Below, piece by piece: positions 433 through 27,359 of a DNA stretch of 28,630 bases. Below the pieces are notes generated by a model. That model did not search any database. It was not told the DNA's origin and saw only the letters and a program-made list of their open reading frames with translations. The position numbers were made by a program, and so were the translations under genes. The stretch comes from Thamnocephalis sphaerospora. Lineage: Eukaryota > Zoopagomycota > Zoopagomycetes > Zoopagales > Sigmoideomycetaceae. The number at the start of each line of letters is the position of its first letter. Positions within the stretch are counted from its first letter, which is position 1. The DNA lies in the NCBI GenBank assembly GCA_003614735.1, contig KZ992579.1:1-28630 (forward strand). Direction: 5' to 3'.

Positions 433-3400
433 TCAGACAAGCCCAAAGCCAGCGTGGTTGTGCACAGCAATAAGCAGCCTGTCGCGCAACTTTTCAAACG
501 TTGCGTACTCGGGCAGCAGTAGACGTCCAAAACAGGTATACGCGCTGGGCAGGCTGCAGAGTGGTGGTACGCCAGCGCACAACAGGTGATCAACAGCACG
601 GTCGTATTGCTCCGTCACGCATGCATCGTGCGTCTTACCGATCTGTGTCGGGTCCGTTGCGCTGCACCGAAAAGCGCACATCCTTGAGACCACGGGGCGG
701 CGCGCGATCGCTGGCTGTGACGAACCGTAGAAACTCGCGCTGTTGCTCGGCAGTCATTGCATGCACCACCTTCCAAAAGTTGCTGTAGGCAAGCAGAGTC
801 CGCGTGAGTGCAGCTAGTACGCAAAACATTCATCGCCATGGACACTCACAGTATCGTCGGGTGCTGTGCGGAGAACCCGTCCTCGTACGTGGTGTTCTCC
901 TCCAGAACGGTAAAGTCCAGCTCGGTGGTGCCACGCAATGCCCAATACAGGTCAGCTGGCTGGAACAGACGCTGCGTAGGAGGTGCGTTAGACCAATGTG
1001 CGCTTGCAAGGCACGGTGTCTGCTGCGCTTCACCTTGATAAACACTTCGTCGCACAGTGTGAAAAAGCCGCGCTTGAACGCCAAAAACTTTGCGCCAAAG
1101 TACTGTGCATCCAAGTGTTCAATGTAGAGCCGGACAAACTCTACGAGTGCAGGAAGCGGCATGCTGGCCGTTAGCGCGACACTGGGGAGCTACAAAAAAG
1201 TATGGACACACCATCGCGGTTTTCCTCAGTCACTGGTGTCGTGCTGCCGCCTGACCGTAGTGGCACCTCTCGCACCTGCCCATAGCGCTCCACATCCACG
1301 GCAAAGGTCAGGCCAAACACATTCTCCACATCGCCCTGGTCCCATTCCAAAAGCTGGCGTAGACTTCGGGCCACCGTCTGATACGCAGCATTCAATGGTA
1401 TGTTAGCGACAGTTGTCTAGAGTTGCTGCTTGTGTATGCTGGCATACAACTTACTGGAAGCATGTCCCCAACGTGAGCAAGCGTCAAAGGTTGGCCGAGT
1501 AGACGCTGGTCAAATGCCAATGGGAATCCGACATCGAGAACAATTCCGTTGTAGAAGGCTAGGCCAACAAAGTACATGCGCGCACATACATATAAGCGTC
1601 AAGGATGACCGGCATAAATGTGTGGAGTCTCGCAGCAACAGCAGCCGTGCGCTGAAAAGGATATAGCACCAAAGAGCTCAAATTGATCGTCGCTCTCTAG
1701 CGAGTTTTCGTTGAAGAGCGTGACGCGTGTATCCGGATCGTACAGAAACATGCCTACAAATGGGGTACGGAGATGTTACAGTCATAAACATGCTGCAAAG
1801 CGGTGGCGATGCTGATGGTAGCTGCATCTGTGTCTCCAGCCGTATACTGGTGCTTACCAAAGGCAGGGTCGAAGAGTTCACGCGCGGCCATTTGGAACAT
1901 CTCCTTTTGCAGACCACCCTGGTCGACGCCCTCCTCGCCGCCATGAACAAATTTGACGCGCAGTGGTCGATGTAGCGCATCCATGCGCAATAGCATCTGT
2001 GAAGACAGCCGTGTTAAAGGAGGAACGGTTGCACCCATGAGTGGTACGCTTACCTGGTCGAGAATGTCGCGAATCATGGATTCACGGCGAAGCTCAAGGG
2101 TCAAATGCGACTCAATCATGGACTGCAGCTGGTTTTCGTACTCTGCAAGTAGTGTCGTATTGCTCGACAGGTGACGCTGGCACAGAGAATACATTCCCTG
2201 CCATCCGCTCACATCCTATCAAAGCCAGCTGCATTAGCGGTGGACAGTGCGTTGCGGTGTCTCAGCATGAACACACCAAGCTGGCTTGCTGCATGCGCGT
2301 AATGGCATGCACACGCATAAAATAGCTCTTAAAGTTGGCGTCGAAAATAAACGGCCAGTCCAAGAAGGTAAACACATTATCGTCGCCACTAGCAGCATCG
2401 CACATTAGAGCCGGACCAGCACGATGAGATCTCCAGCTGTCAACGCACCTTTCTCGTTTGGCAGCCCAGCGCAGGTACTCTTTGCGGAAATCAATCATCC
2501 GCGAAAGATCGCTGCTTTGAAAGTCTTCTGGTCTGCCGGGGGCATTTTCGTCGCTGCACCCCACGGTATCTAAGGCCACAGACGAGTTACGGCACGTAGG
2601 CAGCTATAAGCTTGCGTCGTACAATAGCAAATTGAATGACGAAAGGATACAGAGTAGCTTGAGCACAACAAGTGTCTCGTAGACTTCTCGTCCTGGGCAC
2701 TCGTCCGCAAGATAGATGCGAACCAGATAGTCAATTAGGATAAGTACTAGACGCTGAAATCTCTCGCGATTGTAGCTGATCGTAGCGACAACGAGCAGTC
2801 AGTCACCAAGCATGCTGCGCAACTATGCTACAAATGAGAGCTTACTTGCAAAGACACTGATTAGCAACAAAATCGTGGTCGTCACCGACAGCGCTTGCCA
2901 ATATGTGAATAAGCTGGCTGAGCGTGTCGGTCATTTCTGGCTCAAGAATGAACGGATTCTATCCAGTGTGACAAATGTAAGCGATGTTCTAAAAGCCTCG
3001 TAAACAGCTAAACTCACTTCAAGCAAAATCAGCACTGCCAACATTCGCGAGCGGCCAAGTGTTCCTGGACTCATGGCCGCCAGCTCTGCAGAGAGCTTTT
3101 CCATGGCTGTGCGCATGGGAATGGTTACCACATGCGAAGGCTCCTGCAAGAGCAGCGTCAAAACCAGCATTGGAACAGCATGCGCTGGCATGTTGGGTGC
3201 TTAAACGTACAATTTCGAAAAGCATCTTGTATGTATCGCGTGTTCTTGCTAAATCATATACTTTGGCGGTACATCTACCCGTCAGTCTGCGCAAATATGT
3301 TGATTATACCACGCTACACTCACTCTGACCACCCTTCCCTTTGCCATCGCCCTCCTGCGTCAACAAGGTTAGCTACCATCAGGGTGGATGGTGTGCACAG

Positions 3401-6096: not shown

Positions 6097-9000
6097 ATGC
6101 CGTCGTCCACGTCCAGCATGGACGAGCACCCTGCTCGGGAAAAGATCGAGCAAGCGTAAGTGGTTGGGCTTTCAGACGAGAGGGCACAACTAGCGACTAA
6201 CATGCACGGCCAGCGATGCGGACCAGCCCATGGAGGATGTCTCGCATACTGTCCAGGAGAGCGATGCGCGGAAACGGCAAGTGTGCAGAGTGCACTGGTG
6301 GAGGCGATGAGCCGGTGCAGACGGGCGGCTAACGTGCAGGCACAGGACGCGCTCTAGGTCTGCTAGTACCAGCTCTTCGGTGTCTACGCGTTCACGTTCA
6401 CGTTCACGCTCGCCAGCGCACCGCCGGAGACGTGAGCGCCGCGACTCGCGTTCGCGTTCACCTTCGCCGTCGCGCTCTCGATCTCGCGACCGCCGCCATG
6501 GTCGTCGTTCGCAGCGCTCAACCTCGCGCAATAGGTCACGCTCCCCACAGCCTGAGCTACCGCGCGTGTTTGACATTGATCCCGTGCGCAGACGTGAGCG
6601 CGAGCGGCAGCTGATGGAGCAGTACAACGAAGCGGAGCCGGCGCGTGCTCCTGCTGCTGCGGTGGATCCGGCGGAGGAGCGGATTCGATTGGCGTTCACC
6701 ACACGTACGGGCGGCGCCTATATTCCACCGGCGCGTCTGCGGGCGATGCAGAGTCAGATCACGGATAAGAGCAGCCGTGAATACCAGCGGCTGGAATGGG
6801 AGCAGCTGAAGAAGAGCATCAACGGCCTGGTGAACAAAGTCAACACATCCAACATTAAGCTGATTGTGCCCGACCTGTTCAAGGTCAACCTGATTCGCGG
6901 TCGTGGTCTATTTGCACGTTCCATCATGAAGGCACAGGCAGCGGCGCTGCCGTTTACACCAGTCTATGCAGCATTGATCGCGGTGTTGAACGCAAGGATG
7001 CCGCAGATTGGTGAACTAGTGCTTACTCGGCTGCTTGTCCAGTTCCGGCGTGCTTACAAGCGTAACGACAAGGTACCGTCTTGTAGCTGTAGCTGTAGCT
7101 GTAGGACTGATGTTGGTGTTGCTAACGCGCTTTTGCCACCATTTACAGACCGTGTGTCTGTCCTCTACCACGTTCATTGCCCATTTGTGCAACCAACAAG
7201 TTGCTCACGAGATTGCGGTGCTGCAGATGTTGTCGCTATTGCTGGACCGGCCTACCGATGACAGTGTGGAAATTGCTGTTGGCGTCATGCGCGAGTGCGG
7301 CGCTTTTCTCTCCGAGGCATCGCCGCGTGCGTTCAGCATTGTCTTTGATCGGTTCCGTGCAATCCTGCACGAAGCGCAGATCGACAAGCGTATTCAATAT
7401 ATGATTGAGGTGCTTTTCCAAGTGCGTCGCGACAAGTTCAAGGATAATCCGGCCATGCCCGAGGAACTGGATATTGTCGAGGATGATGACCAAATCACGC
7501 ATACACTTGATCTGGATGACGACAATCTGGACGTGCAGGAGGGACTAGGTAGGCGTTTGTAGACAGCATTGCTCACATGCATGCTGCGCAAGAAAGGTAT
7601 GTGTAGCGTACTGACGGGTGTTTGCAGGCGTGTTCAAGTTTGATCCCGAGTTTTTGGAGAATGAGGAAAAATATGCGCAAATTCGTGCGGAGATTCTGGG
7701 CGAAGACTCCTCGGGAGAGGAGGGAAGCGGCGATGAGGATTCGAGCGAGGAGAGCGATGAGGAAGACGAGGCGGGATCTGCAACCGAAGGTGCAACACAG
7801 GGTAGGCGCATGCGGACAGTGTACCAACGCGGGACTTTTACTGACTTGCACGATTTGACACGCGTTCAGCTCTGGCCAGCCAGCTCAAGATCCAGGATCG
7901 CACGGAAACTAATCTGATCAACCTACGACGCACCATCTATCTTACGATGATGTCGAGCGTGGACTTTGAGGAAACAGCGCACAAGCTGATGAAACTGCAG
8001 CTACAGGAGGGCGATGAGGTAGGTGTGCGGTGCGTGGTGTGCCCAGAGACCAGCGTCTGTGCTAGTTTAGTTGCGCTGATACACGATGGCCTGTTCACCC
8101 GGCATTAGGTTGAGCTATGCAGCATGATCATTGAGACATGCTCGCAGGAACGCACCTACCTAAAGTTTTACGGCCTGCTGGCGGAGCGATTCTGCAGGCT
8201 GAATCGCGTTTGGGCAGAGACGTTTGCGCGTCTATTTGCCGAAACGTTCGATACCATTCACCGCTACGAGACAAACAAGCTGCGCAATGTGGCGCGACTA
8301 TTTGCGCACATTCTTTCCAACGACGCCATCAGCTGGTCGGTGCTTTCTTGTGTGAAGCTGAACGAGGAGGACACCACCGCTAGCTCGCGCATTTTCATCA
8401 AGATTCTGTTTCAGGAGATGTGCGAGGCGCTTGGTCTGAAGCAGCTGAACGATCGACTCAAGGATCCCTACATGGCTGACGCGTTTTCCGGCATCTTTCC
8501 GGTGGACAATCCCAAGAACACGCGCTTTGCCATCAACTACTTTACAAGTATTGGTCTTGGTGGTCTAACGTAAGTGCAATGCGCCGCCCGTTCAATGCAG
8601 ATGCGACACCCACACTCACACCCACCCACACGCTAATATTACAATCCTGTAGCGAGGAGTTGCGTGAGCATTTGAAGAATGCACCCAAGCTGATTATGGC
8701 ACAGAGGCGACTTATGGAAAGCGATTCAAGCGACTCGAGTAGCGACTCGGATAGCGACTCTAGTAGTGACTCGGACAGCAGCTCGGACAGCAGCTCGGAC
8801 AGCAGCTCGGACAGCAGCTCGGATAGCAGCTCGGATAACGATTCTAGCAGCAGCATTTCCTCTTCCTCCGACTCGGATAGCGACTCGAGCCGGGGCCGAG
8901 ATCGACGCCGTAGCACTCGTCGCCGCAGCCTGTCGCGTTCTCGGCAGTCCAGCCGTGCACGGAGTGATCGCAGCAAAAATCGCAGCCAGAGTACAAGCCG

Positions 9001-18856: not shown

Positions 18857-19607
18857 GCGCTGCTGTCGCCATCGCCATTGGCAGTGCAAAAGCCGGGCGT
18901 GGGGCCGCGCCAGACCTGTTTCTGGCTTGCCCGCCCGTTGTCTGCGCTATGTGTCCCATCGTCTCTTGAATACATATACATGCGAAACATTTAAAGGCGT
19001 GTTTGTGCACGTGGTGGGATCAGGATCACCCGAACGCGCCCATATGTAGCAGGCCTTATCGAACAGGACAGGGTGATATTTCGGCTACTTTTAACGCGCG
19101 ATCCTCACTTGTGCTTTTACGGCAAGCCTCAGCGTGCTTGTAGAACCACGGGGATGCGTCACGGGATGCGCACAACGCGTCCGAGGCCAAAAGTGCCGCC
19201 CTGGCGTCGCACCGATGCGCGTGCATCATTAAGCTCTAAGCAGTACTATCCGACTGCTACTTGGCTCCGCGGGTGGACTGCTCATGCGCTGTATATAAAC
19301 CATGTCCACGTTGGCGCCACGTACACTGACGACACACACTCACGCGCACATTCACGCACCTCCCGCCCCATCCTCGCCAACCCTGCTAACGTCTTCTGAC
19401 CCGCTACCTACGCTGCTTCGCCTCGATTACGTATCTGTTTTCTTTTGCTTTCTGGCCTGTGGTTTACGATCTCCACAGTCTATTGTTTCTTTGCGTTCTG
19501 CCATTCGTCTCGCTCTCGTTCTCACTCCCTCCATCTCTTTTACTCGTCTTTGACACATTATTCACGTTCAGACATTGTACTCGTTGCCTCCCGCCTACCT
19601 CGACATC
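18857..19607 (+). promoter_or_regulatory. Fungalysin promoter region with TATA box
   Basis: A TATATAAA box lies at 19292-19299, about 310 bp before the ATG, followed by pyrimidine-rich DNA from about 19410 to 19570 (TCTGTTTTCTTTTGCTTTCT). The first part of the interval (18857-19060) is the 3' flank of the GPI-protein gene. No gene is seen in it. Confidence 0.55.
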
Positions 19608-21527
19608 ATGCGCATGAATGCCTACCTAGCCTTTGTCGTGCTGGCCCTTGTTGGCAGCCTGGGCACGTTCCCAGGCGCTACATCCACCACCACTCCCAGT
19701 CGTCTGCATGTCAAGCCGTTCAGCCCAAAAGTGAACACCAAGGCTGAAGTGCGCGTTCGTTCAAAGACGCTGCAAGGCTATCGGCCGCCGGTATCACTGC
19801 TCCCAAAGGATCCCAAGGACATTGCTCTTGCATTCATCAAGTCACAGTTCAAGATTGAAAGTGCCGACTGTGTTATCAAGAACGTGTACAGGACCGAAGC
19901 CACCGGTGTCACCCATGTATATCTGCGCCAGGTTGTCAAAGGCATCGAAGTTGGCAATGGCGATCTGAGCATCAATATCGACAAGCAGGGGCATGTGGTC
20001 GCCTACGGCAACAGCTTCTTTCAGCTGCGCGACAAAAAGCTGGCCAGACGTGCACAGCTCTGGGATGGCCATCAGACCGCTGGGTTTGTCAAGCCAAGCG
20101 AGGCACTCCGCGTGCTTGCCGATTACATTGGACAGCCGCTCAACGCGGGCGCAATCACCTTGTCGTCTAGCGAGTCGCGCAAGTATGTGCTCAAGGGTGT
20201 GCCTTTTGCCGTCCAGGATGTCACGGCAACGCAGGCGTACCTCCAGCTTGCTGGTGATCAGCTGGTACCTGCATGGGAGTACACGCTGCGCATGCCGCAC
20301 AACTACTTTCACGCCCACGTCTCTGCCGACGGTAAGCAGGTGCTATCTCTGGTCGACTGGGTCAAGGATGCTAGCTACCGTGCGATCAAATTCGGCAACA
20401 ACAATCCGATCGACACGCCGACCGAGCTGATTGACAACCCTGCGGACAAGATAGCCTCTCCTCACGGATGGCACGACCAGGGCGAGAAGCAGTTCACCAC
20501 GACGATCGGCAACAATGTCTACGCCCAGGAGAATATTGCAACCAGCTCTGAATGGGAGAACAACTACCGGCCTGATGGTGGCAAGGGGCTCAAGTTTGAC
20601 TATGCCGCAGATCTGACCAAGGAACCGGCCGAGAGCAAGGATGCGTCCATTACCAATCTCTTCTACATGAACAACATCCTGCACGACCTGTTCTACCGCT
20701 ACGGCTTTGACGAGCCTGCTGGAAACTTCCAGGAAAACAACTGGGGCAAGGGTGGCCAGGGCGGCGATGCTGTTCAGGCCAATGCCCTCGACGGCAGCGA
20801 AACCAACAACGCCGACTTTACGACACCGCCCGACGGCCAGCGCCCAATGATGCGTATGTTTATCTTCACCACAGTTTCGCCAAGCCGTGATGGCGCCCTG
20901 GGGAACGACATTATCACGCACGAATACGGCCACGGTGTCTCGAACCGACTGACGGGCGGCCCGGCCAACTCGGACTGCCTAAGCGAGGGCCAGTCGGCCG
21001 CGATGGGCGAAGGTATAAGCGACTTTTTCGCCATCTGGTCTCAAATGAAGGAGGAGGATACTCCGGCCAAGGACATGATCATTGGCAAGTATGTCACGAA
21101 CACCGGCATCCGCACCTATCCGTACTCCAACAACAACGGCACCAATCCGCTCGCCTTTGGACACTTGAACGACCCCGAGTGGAGCGATTGGCACAAGTCG
21201 GGTGAAATCTGGGCCAACACGCTCTACAAAATGTACTGGAATCTCGTCACAAAGCTTGGCTTTAGCAAGGACATGCACTCGGCCGATCTCACCAAGGGTA
21301 ACACGCTTGCACTCCGGCTGGTGATTGACAGTCTCAAGATACAGCCATGCAACCCGTCATTTCTCAACGCCCGCGACGCCATCCTCCAAGCGGAGCAGCA
21401 GCTGACGGCTGGCAAGCACAAGTGTGCCATCTGGAGTGCATTTGCCAAGTCAGGCATGGGCCTGAACGCCAAGTCCGACGCCAACGGTGTCGTTGAAAGC
21501 TTCGATATGCCGAGCGACTGCGCATAG
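19608..21527 (+). CDS. Fungalysin, secreted M36 zinc metalloprotease
   Basis: Intronless, 639 aa. Extracellular elastinolytic-type protease made as a preproenzyme. Signal peptide about 1-24; FTP propeptide about 66-120 (PKDIALAFIKSQF, VYLRQVVKGIEVGNGDLSIN); long inhibitory propeptide; mature M36 domain with zinc motif HEYGH at 438-442 (Glu439 catalytic) and third ligand Glu468 in AMGEGISDFFA. SNRLTGGPANSDCL is the family signature after HEYGH. The usual family sequence around the third ligand is GEGWSDF; here Trp is Ile. Length agrees with known fungalysins (about 630). The first ATG after the pyrimidine tract (MRMNAYLAFV) gives a proper signal peptide. Its stop is 202 bp from the convergent HDAC stop. 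Confidence 0.96.
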   Translation: MRMNAYLAFVVLALVGSLGTFPGATSTTTPSRLHVKPFSPKVNTKAEVRVRSKTLQGYRPPVSLLPKDPKDIALAFIKSQFKIESADCVIKNVYRTEATGVTHVYLRQVVKGIEVGNGDLSINIDKQGHVVAYGNSFFQLRDKKLARRAQLWDGHQTAGFVKPSEALRVLADYIGQPLNAGAITLSSSESRKYVLKGVPFAVQDVTATQAYLQLAGDQLVPAWEYTLRMPHNYFHAHVSADGKQVLSLVDWVKDASYRAIKFGNNNPIDTPTELIDNPADKIASPHGWHDQGEKQFTTTIGNNVYAQENIATSSEWENNYRPDGGKGLKFDYAADLTKEPAESKDASITNLFYMNNILHDLFYRYGFDEPAGNFQENNWGKGGQGGDAVQANALDGSETNNADFTTPPDGQRPMMRMFIFTTVSPSRDGALGNDIITHEYGHGVSNRLTGGPANSDCLSEGQSAAMGEGISDFFAIWSQMKEEDTPAKDMIIGKYVTNTGIRTYPYSNNNGTNPLAFGHLNDPEWSDWHKSGEIWANTLYKMYWNLVTKLGFSKDMHSADLTKGNTLALRLVIDSLKIQPCNPSFLNARDAILQAEQQLTAGKHKCAIWSAFAKSGMGLNAKSDANGVVESFDMPSDCA

Positions 21528-21729: not shown

Positions 21730-23483
21730 TCATACATCCACGTCCATCGACTCGGACTCGCCGGCACTGTGGCCGGCTGATTTTCTTGACCGGCGGCGGC
21801 GCTCATTGGTGCCATCTTCAGCGTCCTGGTCTGCTTCGTTTTCGTACCATTCGCCTGAAGTTGGTGCGGCCGTGGAAATGGTTGAGCTGCCGTTGCCCTG
21901 CCGAGCGCGAAACTCGGCGCCGCCTCCTCGCCCGTGCTCCGTTTCTTCCTGTTCCACATGACGATCCTCCTCACGCTCACGCTCCGCCCGTTCCTCATCC
22001 TCCATAAACCCTTGAATGTCGGGCGGCACCTCTTGCATCTGCACACTTGGTGCGCCTTTTAGGTAGCGCAGGCGCTCTAGAATACCAACGCGCACCTCCT
22101 GCAGATACGCTTGTGTATTCTGATTCTCCACGCGACCGTCCAGTCGTGGATGGAGTCGATAGTCGGGTGCGAAATATTCCCGGTATATGTTCTCCGGAAG
22201 ACGGTCCGGTAGTCGCTGGTCCACAACAACGCTTGTCTCGTACGTCCAACAGCGGCTAACATTCCTGATCGTGTAGCCGCCGCCGCCGAGCACCAGCGTG
22301 GGGAGCTTAAAGTCTTTGATAAACCGAACGCACTCACCGTGCGCGGCAATGCTCAGGTTGAAGCAGCCAAGGCGATCGCAGCCGAGAGAGTCGGCACCGC
22401 ATTGCAGCACAATTGCAGCCGGCCGGTATGACTGCAGCACACCTTCCATCACAGACTTGAACAGCTCCAGGTACCGCTCGTCGTCGATGCCATCGCGGAG
22501 CGGCACATTCAGCGCAAAGTGCTTCCCCTGTCCGCTACCCGTCTCCTCTAGTGCGCCGGTACCTGGGAAAAAGTCGCCGTTGTACTTGTGAAAGCTGACC
22601 GTCATCACGCGGTCAGTTGTGTAGAACGCCTCCTGTACACCATCACCGTGGTGGATGTCTATGTCTATGTAGAGGACACGCGGATAGTATCTGCATTGCA
22701 CCGAATGGGCGTTAGTAGTGGGCAGCAGTTTGGCATGCGCTATACCAACGCTACCTGAGCAGTTCCAGAATGGCGAGAACAATGTCGTTCACATAGCAAA
22801 ACCCGCTTGCCTCAAACTTTTTCGCGTGATGCAATCCGCCGCTCCAGTTCACGGCAATGTCGGCGGTCCCAGCGCACAGTCTCCGTGCTGCCTCGATGGA
22901 TGCACCGGTGTATGTTTTGCAAAAGTCGTACATGCCATCGAAGATCGGGCAGTCGTCGCCGATGTTGTACTTTGGAAACGACTCGGCAAATGTGTGTGCG
23001 TTGTCTGGAGTTACCCTGCAGAAAAATCGTCAGCTGTGCCATGTGCGCACGATATCACTACCACCAACAAACATCGCGTACCGCTTCAGAAAATCAATGT
23101 AGTCGCTCGAGTGAAACTGCGTAATCTCCTCCTCTGTGGCGCTTCTTGGCTGGTAGACCTCCATTTTCCGATGCAGCCCATAAGACATGACTAGATGGTT
23201 GGTGAGCGTAAGTCGATGCGGTTTCATTGGATGTCGCTCCTGCAACGAAGATAGGTGTCAGTCGGAAGTGCAGCGCCATGGCAGCCGCCGTCTGCACCTA
23301 GCCAGTTTGTGCAGGCGTGCCTACCCCGTAATGATAGTTGCCGACGCCCTCATCGTGAAAGTAGGAGACGCGCGTGCGTGAATGCGCCTGTGTGGGCAGA
23401 TCGTCGGCCGGGTAGTGCAGATAGGTGTGCGCGTTGGAGCGTTGTGAGGCGCTAAACGTAGGACCCCAGTCCTCGCGTGGCAT
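21730..23483 (-). CDS. HOS2: Class I histone deacetylase, Hos2/HDAC3 type
   Basis: Catalytic subunit expected in a Set3/SMRT-like complex, deacetylating histone tails. Exons (descending): 23483-23325, 23239-23082, 23015-22755, 22690-21730; sum 1539 nt, 512 aa. Complete active site: His168/His169 (GGLHHAKK), zinc ligands Asp204, His206 ([10 protein letters not shown]) and Asp293 ([10 protein letters not shown]), and Tyr332 (GGGGYTIRN). [16 protein letters not shown] and [19 protein letters not shown] fit Hos2/HDAC3 better than Rpd3. The start at 23483 gives a leader ([10 protein letters not shown]) and [16 protein letters not shown] as in Hos2. The C-terminal tail from about 425 is acidic then basic, ending ESMDVDV. 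It follows the MARVEL-like gene on the same strand after 207 bp. Confidence 0.96.
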
Positions 23484-25361: not shown

Positions 25362-26456
25362 GGCTGCGCAGTGCTACTGCAAACTGTGCACCGTCGACTG
25401 TCGATAATGGCTGGTCCCTGCGTTTTACAAAGTAGTGCTAGCCACAGAGCTCTTGGAAACGTGGACAAGTTACGGTGAAGAGAGGATGCATCGCAGGCAC
25501 CTAGCAGCAGGGCGTATTTGCGCTGCGCAGCAACCCTGTGGAGGGGCAAGCCAGCAACCGCTTGCCTTGCCCCTTTTACGCTAGTTACGCCTCCCTACCG
25601 CCGGTGTAGGCTGGGCAACAGCCACCGTGACCTAGCCGACTGGGCACCAGGTGCGGTTACCTAGGTGTCGACGATTACCCGCCAATACACCGTTTCGCGT
25701 AGCTAATCCGGTCAACTCACCGCCGTGCTAACTTGCGGTCGTGCCGAGGCCTCAGCTGGCGCGCATCTGAGAATGGCCGAACGGGACAACCGCCCTCATC
25801 TCATTACGTCAGTCGAAGATAACGTGCAGCCAGTCGGGGCTGCTTTTGCCGGTGCCTTCGCGGGAAGGTTCGATTTGGCGCAGCACGGGATAAAGCGGGC
25901 GGAAGGCAAGCGGGATAAGCTAGTTCCGTAATTGTAGGTTGTACTACACTGGAATAGGAAGACAGGCAGGCAGACGATGAGATTGGCGCTGTCACACATG
26001 CCTAGCTAACGTTGCACGCGCACGGGATTGCATCTAATGTTGGGCACTGCACACATGTCTGGTGAGCCCAAATCCACTTGCGGAGGGAGCGGCGGCGAGT
26101 GCTGGGTAAAGCGACTTGCTACATTGTACCCGCTTGTGACATAGTCGTGGGTCGGTGTTGCCGCAAAACGCAAGACTACTCGACGGCGCACAACGCCAAT
26201 GCGGCGCACATCTCGTCCGTCGAATCGCCGCTACCAAAAGCGATGGCATACTGCACGAGCGCGTGATGCCGCGACATATAAGTTGCCGGTACGCAGCACA
26301 CGCCGCCAGCGTCAGCCATCATCCTCAACACGTCAACCCAGTCACAAGCACATCGCTACGCACGCATTCTGTCACCCAAAGCCCAGCACGTCCCAAGGCT
26401 GCACCACGTCCCAGAAACTCCTTTACGCCACCAGGATTTAATGATTTAAGCGCACC
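25362..26456. promoter_or_regulatory. 1.1-kb intergenic region with the S1/P1 nuclease promoter
   Basis: Divergent spacer between the MARVEL-like gene and the S1/P1 nuclease. CATATAAG (26275-26282) is a TATA box 182 bp before the nuclease ATG. Short GC-rich inverted segments near 25560-25670 show no tRNA cloverleaf. No believable gene. Confidence 0.5.
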
Positions 26457-27359
26457 ATGTTCAAAAAGACCATTCTCCTTGCCGTTGCTGGCGCCATTGT
26501 CAGTCTGCCGGCCGTCCATGCCTGGGGTAAAGATGGCCATACCGCCGTTGGCCTTCTCACGCAGCGTCTGCTCAACACAAAGGTGCGCAGCACACTCGAA
26601 CGGCTGCTTGGCAGCGATCCGTCCGTGCATGGCGACTTTGGTCTTGCCGGCGCCTGGGCCGACAACATCAAGAGCAACTCGAGCTACAACTGGGCCAGTT
26701 CACTGCACTATGTTGGACTCACCGGCACAACACCCGACACCTGCACAACCTACGTGCCATCCCACTGCGCAAATGGCAGGTGTGTCGTTACCGGCATTGC
26801 CAACTACACCGAGCGTGCCGTCGCCCAGGCATCGGAAGCTGATCGCCAGGAGGCCGTCAAGTTCCTGCTGCACTTTCTCGGCGACATTGCACAACCACTA
26901 CATGCCACAGAGGTAGAGCGCGGAGGCAACGGCAACAAGTGCCACTGGAATGGAGCCAAGACCAGTCTTCACAGCGTGTGGGATAGCACCATTCTCGTCA
27001 AAACGATCAACCACAACTTTGATGGCTATGTCAACCAGCTAGAGTACGATATTGTCAAGGGCAAGTACGCTAGCAGCACAGCGTCATGGGTGTCCTGCTT
27101 CAAAAAGACCGGCGCCACGCTTGATTCGTGCGTTGTAGAGTGGATCAATGAGGCCAACCAGTTCAACTGCAACTACATTTTCCCGACGTACTATGCCGCC
27201 AAGCAGCGTGATGATCTGGAGCTGGGCACCAGCTATTACGCTGAGAATGCGGAAAACATCAACCGTTTCATTTCTCGTGCCGCTGTGCGTGCTGCCTACT
27301 ACTTCAACACCTTGTTCAAGGGCAAATCCAGCAAATGCCTTTCCTGTACTATTAGCTAA
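26457..27359 (+). CDS. Secreted S1/P1-type zinc nuclease
   Basis: Intronless, 300 aa. Single-strand-specific nuclease/3'-nucleotidase using three zinc ions. Signal peptide 1-22, cleaved before Trp23 so that Trp becomes the N-terminus, which is itself a ligand in this family. All nine expected ligands are present: Trp23, His28 (AWGKDGH), Asp69 (AGAWADN), His84 (SLHYV), His139, Asp143, His149 (LLHFLGDIAQPLH), His172 and Asp176 (LHSVWDS). Cysteines are mainly in the P1-like disulfide positions and at the C-terminus (KCLSC). Length is as in the family. A second copy begins 1.2 kb downstream. Confidence 0.96.
   Translation: MFKKTILLAVAGAIVSLPAVHAWGKDGHTAVGLLTQRLLNTKVRSTLERLLGSDPSVHGDFGLAGAWADNIKSNSSYNWASSLHYVGLTGTTPDTCTTYVPSHCANGRCVVTGIANYTERAVAQASEADRQEAVKFLLHFLGDIAQPLHATEVERGGNGNKCHWNGAKTSLHSVWDSTILVKTINHNFDGYVNQLEYDIVKGKYASSTASWVSCFKKTGATLDSCVVEWINEANQFNCNYIFPTYYAAKQRDDLELGTSYYAENAENINRFISRAAVRAAYYFNTLFKGKSSKCLSCTIS

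Follow-up and report, generated by a model that had tools for sequence, protein, structure and literature searches.

A very probable minor-class AT-AC intron interrupting the HECT-coding region of a UBE3A-like gene in an early-branching fungus

The UBE3A-like gene and its AT-AC intron

The window (the whole stretch of 28,630 nt that was analyzed, contig 156 of the assembly) carries at 433..2214, on the minus strand, the 3' part of a gene for a UBE3A-like HECT ligase. Nine exons were placed by hand on the minus strand (2214-2054, 1996-1858, 1753-1665, 1571-1455, 1376-1210, 1169-1033, 969-848, 780-638 and 556-433), and their boundaries are approximate except those of the intron at 1664..1572. 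Based on the hand-spliced protein, a complete HECT domain was found (Pfam PF00632, 255 bits, Pfam positions 2-305 of 306), and the best solved relative was UBE3A (E 3.4e-83, as against 5.6e-50 for NEDD4). The likeness to the UBE3A (E6AP) HECT ligases consists of this complete domain and this best match among solved structures, and it bears out the UBE3A-like identity given in a preliminary description of the locus. Elsewhere in the window, a fungalysin M36 metallopeptidase (19554-21524, plus strand), an S1/P1 nuclease (26445-27356, plus strand) and an exon of a histone deacetylase (21733-22788, minus strand, 184 bits) were observed, together with an RS-rich frame (6311-7258, plus strand) that has a weak MIF4G match below the cut-off and is perhaps a CWC22-like splicing factor.

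Between the upstream HECT exon at 1665..1753 (ending ...FELFGA) and the downstream HECT exon at 1455..1571, both on the minus strand, lies the predicted U12-type (minor-class) AT-AC intron of 93 nt in phase 0 (1572..1664, minus strand), which reads ATATCCTTTTC...TCATCCTTGAC...GCATGTAC on that strand. Its donor ATATCCTTT (1656..1664, minus strand) meets the U12 donor consensus RTATCCTT, its branch motif TCCTTGAC (1598..1605, minus strand) meets the U12 branch consensus TCCTTRAC, and its acceptor AC (1572..1573, minus strand) is the earliest AC or AG past the branch motif; the U12 match of donor and branch and the AC end are as first described. The branch motif begins 59 nt from the start of the intron, and the acceptor ends 26 nt past the motif. 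The neighbouring placed donors are of the ordinary GT kind, namely GTAAGC at 2053 and GTAAGT at 1454, the latter directly following the downstream exon. Both strands of the window were scanned for a donor RTATCCTT followed 30-114 nt later by a branch TCCTTRAC, one mismatch being allowed over the pair; the intron at 1664..1572 was the sole match, and none was found in the reversed window. The predicted fold of the intron was no more stable than that of shuffled sequences (z 0.30), and Rfam gave no match over the whole window at gathering scores.

Removal of the intron left a single open frame across the joined exons on translation. The resulting HECT junction was gap-free against the best database match, Syncephalis fuscata P0001 (...YELVGAFLGLAFYNGAWLDVGFP).

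Recurrence of the intron class in the genome

The genome search covered 14.46 Mb in 594 contigs. The 9-mer donor ATATCCTTT had 105 matches, compared with 29 for the reversed 9-mer. The strict AT-AC pattern gave 23 matches in the genome and none in the reversed genome, corresponding to 17 distinct introns once nested and duplicated rows were merged, and the strict GT-AG pattern gave 17 matches and none reversed (16 distinct); because of these counts against zero, the window intron is not regarded as a product of chance. The window intron does not figure among the 17, since it runs further from branch to acceptor than the pattern allows: its branch A stands 27 nt before its end, compared with 10-23 nt in the 33 strict candidates, a range that the pattern capped and for which some candidates offered several acceptors, chosen by hand. 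Identical intron matches were seen on the contig pairs C408/C532, C425/C500 and C147/C441, and the assembly looks partly duplicated.

Joining the flanks of the 33 candidates gave, in 32 of them, one or more frames that stayed open for 10 residues either side of the junction. The Pfam input comprised 33 peptides from these 32 loci (two for L019), chosen by eye among 80 open frames (1 to 8 per locus). A Pfam domain spanned the junction in 15 of the 32 joined candidates (13 clear, one marginal and one weak), an uncalibrated figure that counts the best eye-chosen frames. The domains were ELP4 (PAXNEB), syntaxin 6, SMC hinge, CNH (weak, below the cut-off), molybdopterin-binding, BRCT, VPS51/EXO84, GAA1, deaminase, PIG-U, ELP1 (marginal, four residues), vezatin, CBM48, eEFSec and Gryzun. 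A domain adjoined the junction in three further cases (Det1, RINT1 and PQ-loop, the last below the cut-off), and no Pfam match was obtained for the remaining 14 of the 32; among these, L047 was identified by eye as UBL5/HUB1, L048 as SCYL2-like and L027 as RTF1-like. The remaining candidate (L039), whose joined flanks gave no such open frame and which was left out of the Pfam input, is LSM5 by eye. The 15 domain-spanning introns were distributed over phase 1 (10), phase 2 (3) and phase 0 (2).

The elongation-factor gene (L041, contig 253, about 9.5-12.6 kb) was recognized as that of a selenocysteine-specific elongation factor (PF21208, 91 bits; PF21131, 47 bits); it carries a candidate U12-type GT-AG intron, and the presence of the gene suggests that this fungus may make selenoproteins.

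A less selected sample consisted of the ATATCCTTT sites listed for contigs C3 to C65, 31 in all. When up to one mismatch was allowed, the branch motif was found 35-114 nt downstream at 10 of the 31 sites, compared with one of 31 in the equal upstream stretch, and the exact motif occurred at three sites downstream and at none upstream. An AC followed the motif in eight of the 10 sites with a downstream branch and was missing in two; four of the 10 belong to the strict set. At L106 (C56) and L108 (C62), the ATATCCTTT donor and CCTTGAC are present with no AC 3-30 nt after the motif, and these may be AT-AG minor introns. The firm count is 33 candidates and the window intron; for the whole genome we infer a total of roughly one hundred minor introns.

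Minor-spliceosome components and the origin of the assembly

One U6atac match above the Rfam cut-off (38 bits, cut-off 33, E 4.6e-7) was found on contig 139 (L032:1501-1656, minus strand). Some 31 nt ahead of the gene stands TATAAATAG (TATA), its end is marked by a T-run, and the stability of the fold did not exceed that of shuffles (z 0.86). SNRNP35 (35K) gave three consecutive matches on contig 41, the first of which spanned the N-terminal block at 62% (34 residues); the genome query was the lungfish row P0135, with no fungal-named row among the best 120 of 1518 homologues. When hand-spliced from six exons, 35K aligned to the solved structure of U11/U12 35K with E 6e-47, compared with 3e-17 for U1-70K. 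SNRNP25 (25K) was detected with PF18036 (37.5 bits, cut-off 22.8) and, when hand-spliced from three exons, aligned to the solved structure of U11/U12 25K with E 2.2e-10. The raw frame of the 25K match and of two of the three 35K matches contains an in-frame stop, which falls inside introns in the spliced models. U6atac, 35K, 25K and the further introns support the presence in this genome of a minor splicing system, as the preliminary description had expected from the intron.

U12 and U4atac RNAs and the 65K protein (RNPC3) did not appear in the limited searches made for them, so that the search for components proposed with the intron succeeded for U6atac, 35K and 25K and came back empty for these three. 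For U12, Rfam gave no match among the 42 of 162 candidates scored, with no signal in the control genomes; a 20-mer with three mismatches had no match in the genome and two in the control, and a 16-mer with two mismatches had four, compared with seven in the control, none of the four loci having an Rfam match up to E 5. One locus (L050) was considered as U12, since it carries GCAAGGA, which could base-pair with the TCCTTGAC branch that is common here, yet no U12-like sequence was recognized by eye and it was rejected. For U4atac, Rfam gave no match among the 48 of 156 candidates scored, and one control genome, an archaeon, matched below the cut-off. A U4atac pattern built on the genome's own U6atac had 19 matches, near the chance level given by the 12 in the control. 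When 18 of the 19 loci were analyzed by cmscan (L061, nested in L060, was excluded), four matches were obtained, all below gathering scores and none to U4 or U4atac. At L062:2729-2990 (minus strand) an isrG-like match was noted (39 bits, gathering score 100), which is most likely an effect of composition. The best of four matches in the 65K search (L073) was rejected as U1A-like (U1A E 4.4e-21, compared with 1.8e-4 for RNA-binding protein 40); the remaining three stood at E about 0.006, and introns may split the domain. These negatives for U12, U4atac and 65K weigh little, because the genome search scored part of the candidates and the U12 controls were silent.

The HECT protein was nearest to that of Syncephalis fuscata (67%), followed by Paraphysoderma, Basidiobolus and chytrids (43-49%), and named Dikarya stood far lower than Syncephalis (e.g., Aspergillus oleicola, 43%). 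For 35K, the nearest proteins were those of Syncephalis plumigaleata (60%) and Basidiobolus (61-62%), with the kin of Mucor at 49-53%. On these protein likenesses, the source fungus is placed near Syncephalis, in the Zoopagomycota; NCBI taxonomy lists Syncephalis in the Zoopagomycota and Basidiobolus as a phylum of its own. The surprise voiced in the preliminary description, which took the loss of minor spliceosomes in most Dikarya as its frame, therefore falls away, as the nearest named proteins belong to Syncephalis and Basidiobolus.

It is quite improbable that the assembly is mixed, that is, that the minor-spliceosome parts come from a host or companion fungus while the intron itself is real. 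Syncephalis and such relatives grow on other fungi, and some of the intron matches lie on contig pairs (C408/C532, C425/C500 and C147/C441), both of which speak for a mixture. Against it stand the placement of 35K nearest to Syncephalis and Basidiobolus (60-62%) rather than to the kin of Mucor, and the base composition: the three machinery loci have a GC of 0.555-0.592 and the 40 intron loci one of 0.52-0.60, compared with 0.567 in the window. As the GC of the machinery and intron loci agrees with that of the window, no sign of a mixed assembly is seen at these loci.

Reading of the intron and comparison with other fungi

A set of 2788 stop-free, frame-keeping cuts of the two HECT exons was scored against Syncephalis fuscata P0001. 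The AT-AC cut at 1664..1572 had the top score (253), and the exact repair of the HECT block reported earlier was thereby reproduced; shifting the cut by one base (1665..1573, TA-TA) gave an equal peptide and score, the only tie, but such ends have no splice-site logic. It had also been claimed that no GT-AG alternative keeps the frame, which was wrong, since the GT-AG cuts 1639..1559 and 1669..1559 both do. They leave some room for an ordinary U2-type GT-AG intron in which the minor-class motifs stand by chance, yet 1639..1559, the best GT-AG cut, scored 222 (extra residues, with FVGLA lost) and 1669..1559 scored 211 (conserved residues lost). The strict combination of motifs was, moreover, absent from the reversed genome and the relaxed one from the reversed window, and the U2-type reading is accordingly held to be very improbable. 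Handling of the AT-AC intron by the major spliceosome, which is known for a few AT-AC introns of the ATATAAG type and which AT-AC ends alone are insufficient to dismiss, is equally improbable in view of the full U12 consensus of donor and branch and of U6atac, 35K and 25K in the genome. The intron at 1664..1572 is, with little doubt, a true minor-class intron that interrupts the HECT-coding part of a UBE3A-like ubiquitin ligase gene, and it is probably spliced out in the living cell. What speaks against this reading is its long stretch from branch to acceptor, the frame-keeping GT-AG cuts, the empty searches for U12, U4atac and 65K, and the stops in the raw 25K and 35K matches.

Under the minor-class reading, the U11 snRNP, with 35K and 25K, would be the first to recognize the donor; U6atac would follow, its AAAGGA pairing with the TCCTTT of the donor; the branch site would be read by U12, and the intron would be cut out at AT and AC. 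The steps of U11, U12 and U4atac belong to general knowledge of minor splicing, and these three RNAs are presumably encoded in the genome.

The U6atac gene has an oddity. It has GAGAGACAGUUGGCG instead of the GAGAGAAGGUUAGCA of the Rfam consensus (GUUGGC versus GUUAGC), and this sole match shows an intact donor-pairing segment, the 5' stem GUGUUGA/UCAACAC, the upstream TATA and the T-run. The AGC of the U6atac consensus is what we take to be the catalytic triad, which is generally regarded as nearly invariant. The GGC may be either an adapted triad or an assembly error. As a tentative proposal, possible although we lean against it, the minor spliceosome of this fungus might run on a U6atac in which GGC replaces the AGC triad, and its U12 might have diverged beyond the reach of the searches made; in that case, a G-C pair with U12 would stand where the normal pairing lies. 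Across the 33 strict candidates, the branch form was CCTTGAC in 29 and CCTTAAC in four, a preference that may point to a changed U12. If true, the change of the U6atac triad would be a natural test of the rigidity of the catalytic core of the spliceosome. A literature search for U6 A59G found nothing, and the genome paper of Lichtheimia reportedly names U6atac.

The intron is of a rare kind, whose removal depends on a second spliceosome; most yeasts, moulds and mushrooms no longer have it. PMC10639083 counts 249 minor introns for Basidiobolus meristosporus and 205 for Rhizophagus irregularis, and gives Ascomycota and Basidiomycota as without a convincing case. The same paper places Basidiobolus in the Zoopagomycota and infers a pronounced loss in the ancestor of that group, which it finds notable because the minor-intron-rich Basidiobolus is counted there. 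The minor introns, 35K and 25K of a Syncephalis-like genome would bear directly on this inferred loss (PMC10639083). A literature search for Zoopagomycota with minor introns returned PMC10639083 alone, in the available text of which Syncephalis is not named, and searches on introns in Syncephalis or Zoopagales genomes and on minor introns of early-diverging fungi since 2023 found nothing. As minor introns have already been published for Basidiobolus, Rhizophagus, Rhizopus and Phycomyces, the window intron would be a further instance, and an early-branching fungus with a compact genome (14.5 Mb assembled) would join the few fungal lineages that retain the minor spliceosome.

The likeness to Basidiobolus meristosporus and Rhizophagus irregularis lies in minor introns in early-branching fungi with the U12 donor and branch consensus; the difference lies in lineage, the nearest relative here being Syncephalis, and in the lower count here, at least 33 in addition to the window intron. 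The phase order 1 > 2 > 0 reported for Rhizophagus in PMC10639083 is that of the domain-spanning introns here (10/3/2), whereas of the four minor snRNAs that the same paper gives for Rhizophagus, U6atac alone was found here in searches for U6atac, U12 and U4atac. Rhizopus oryzae, with few U12-type introns, and Phycomyces blakesleeanus, with up to about 20, have AT-AC and GT-AG minor introns, as here, supported by ESTs there; they are other fungi, called Zygomycota in PMC2846911, in which such introns number only from a few to about 20.
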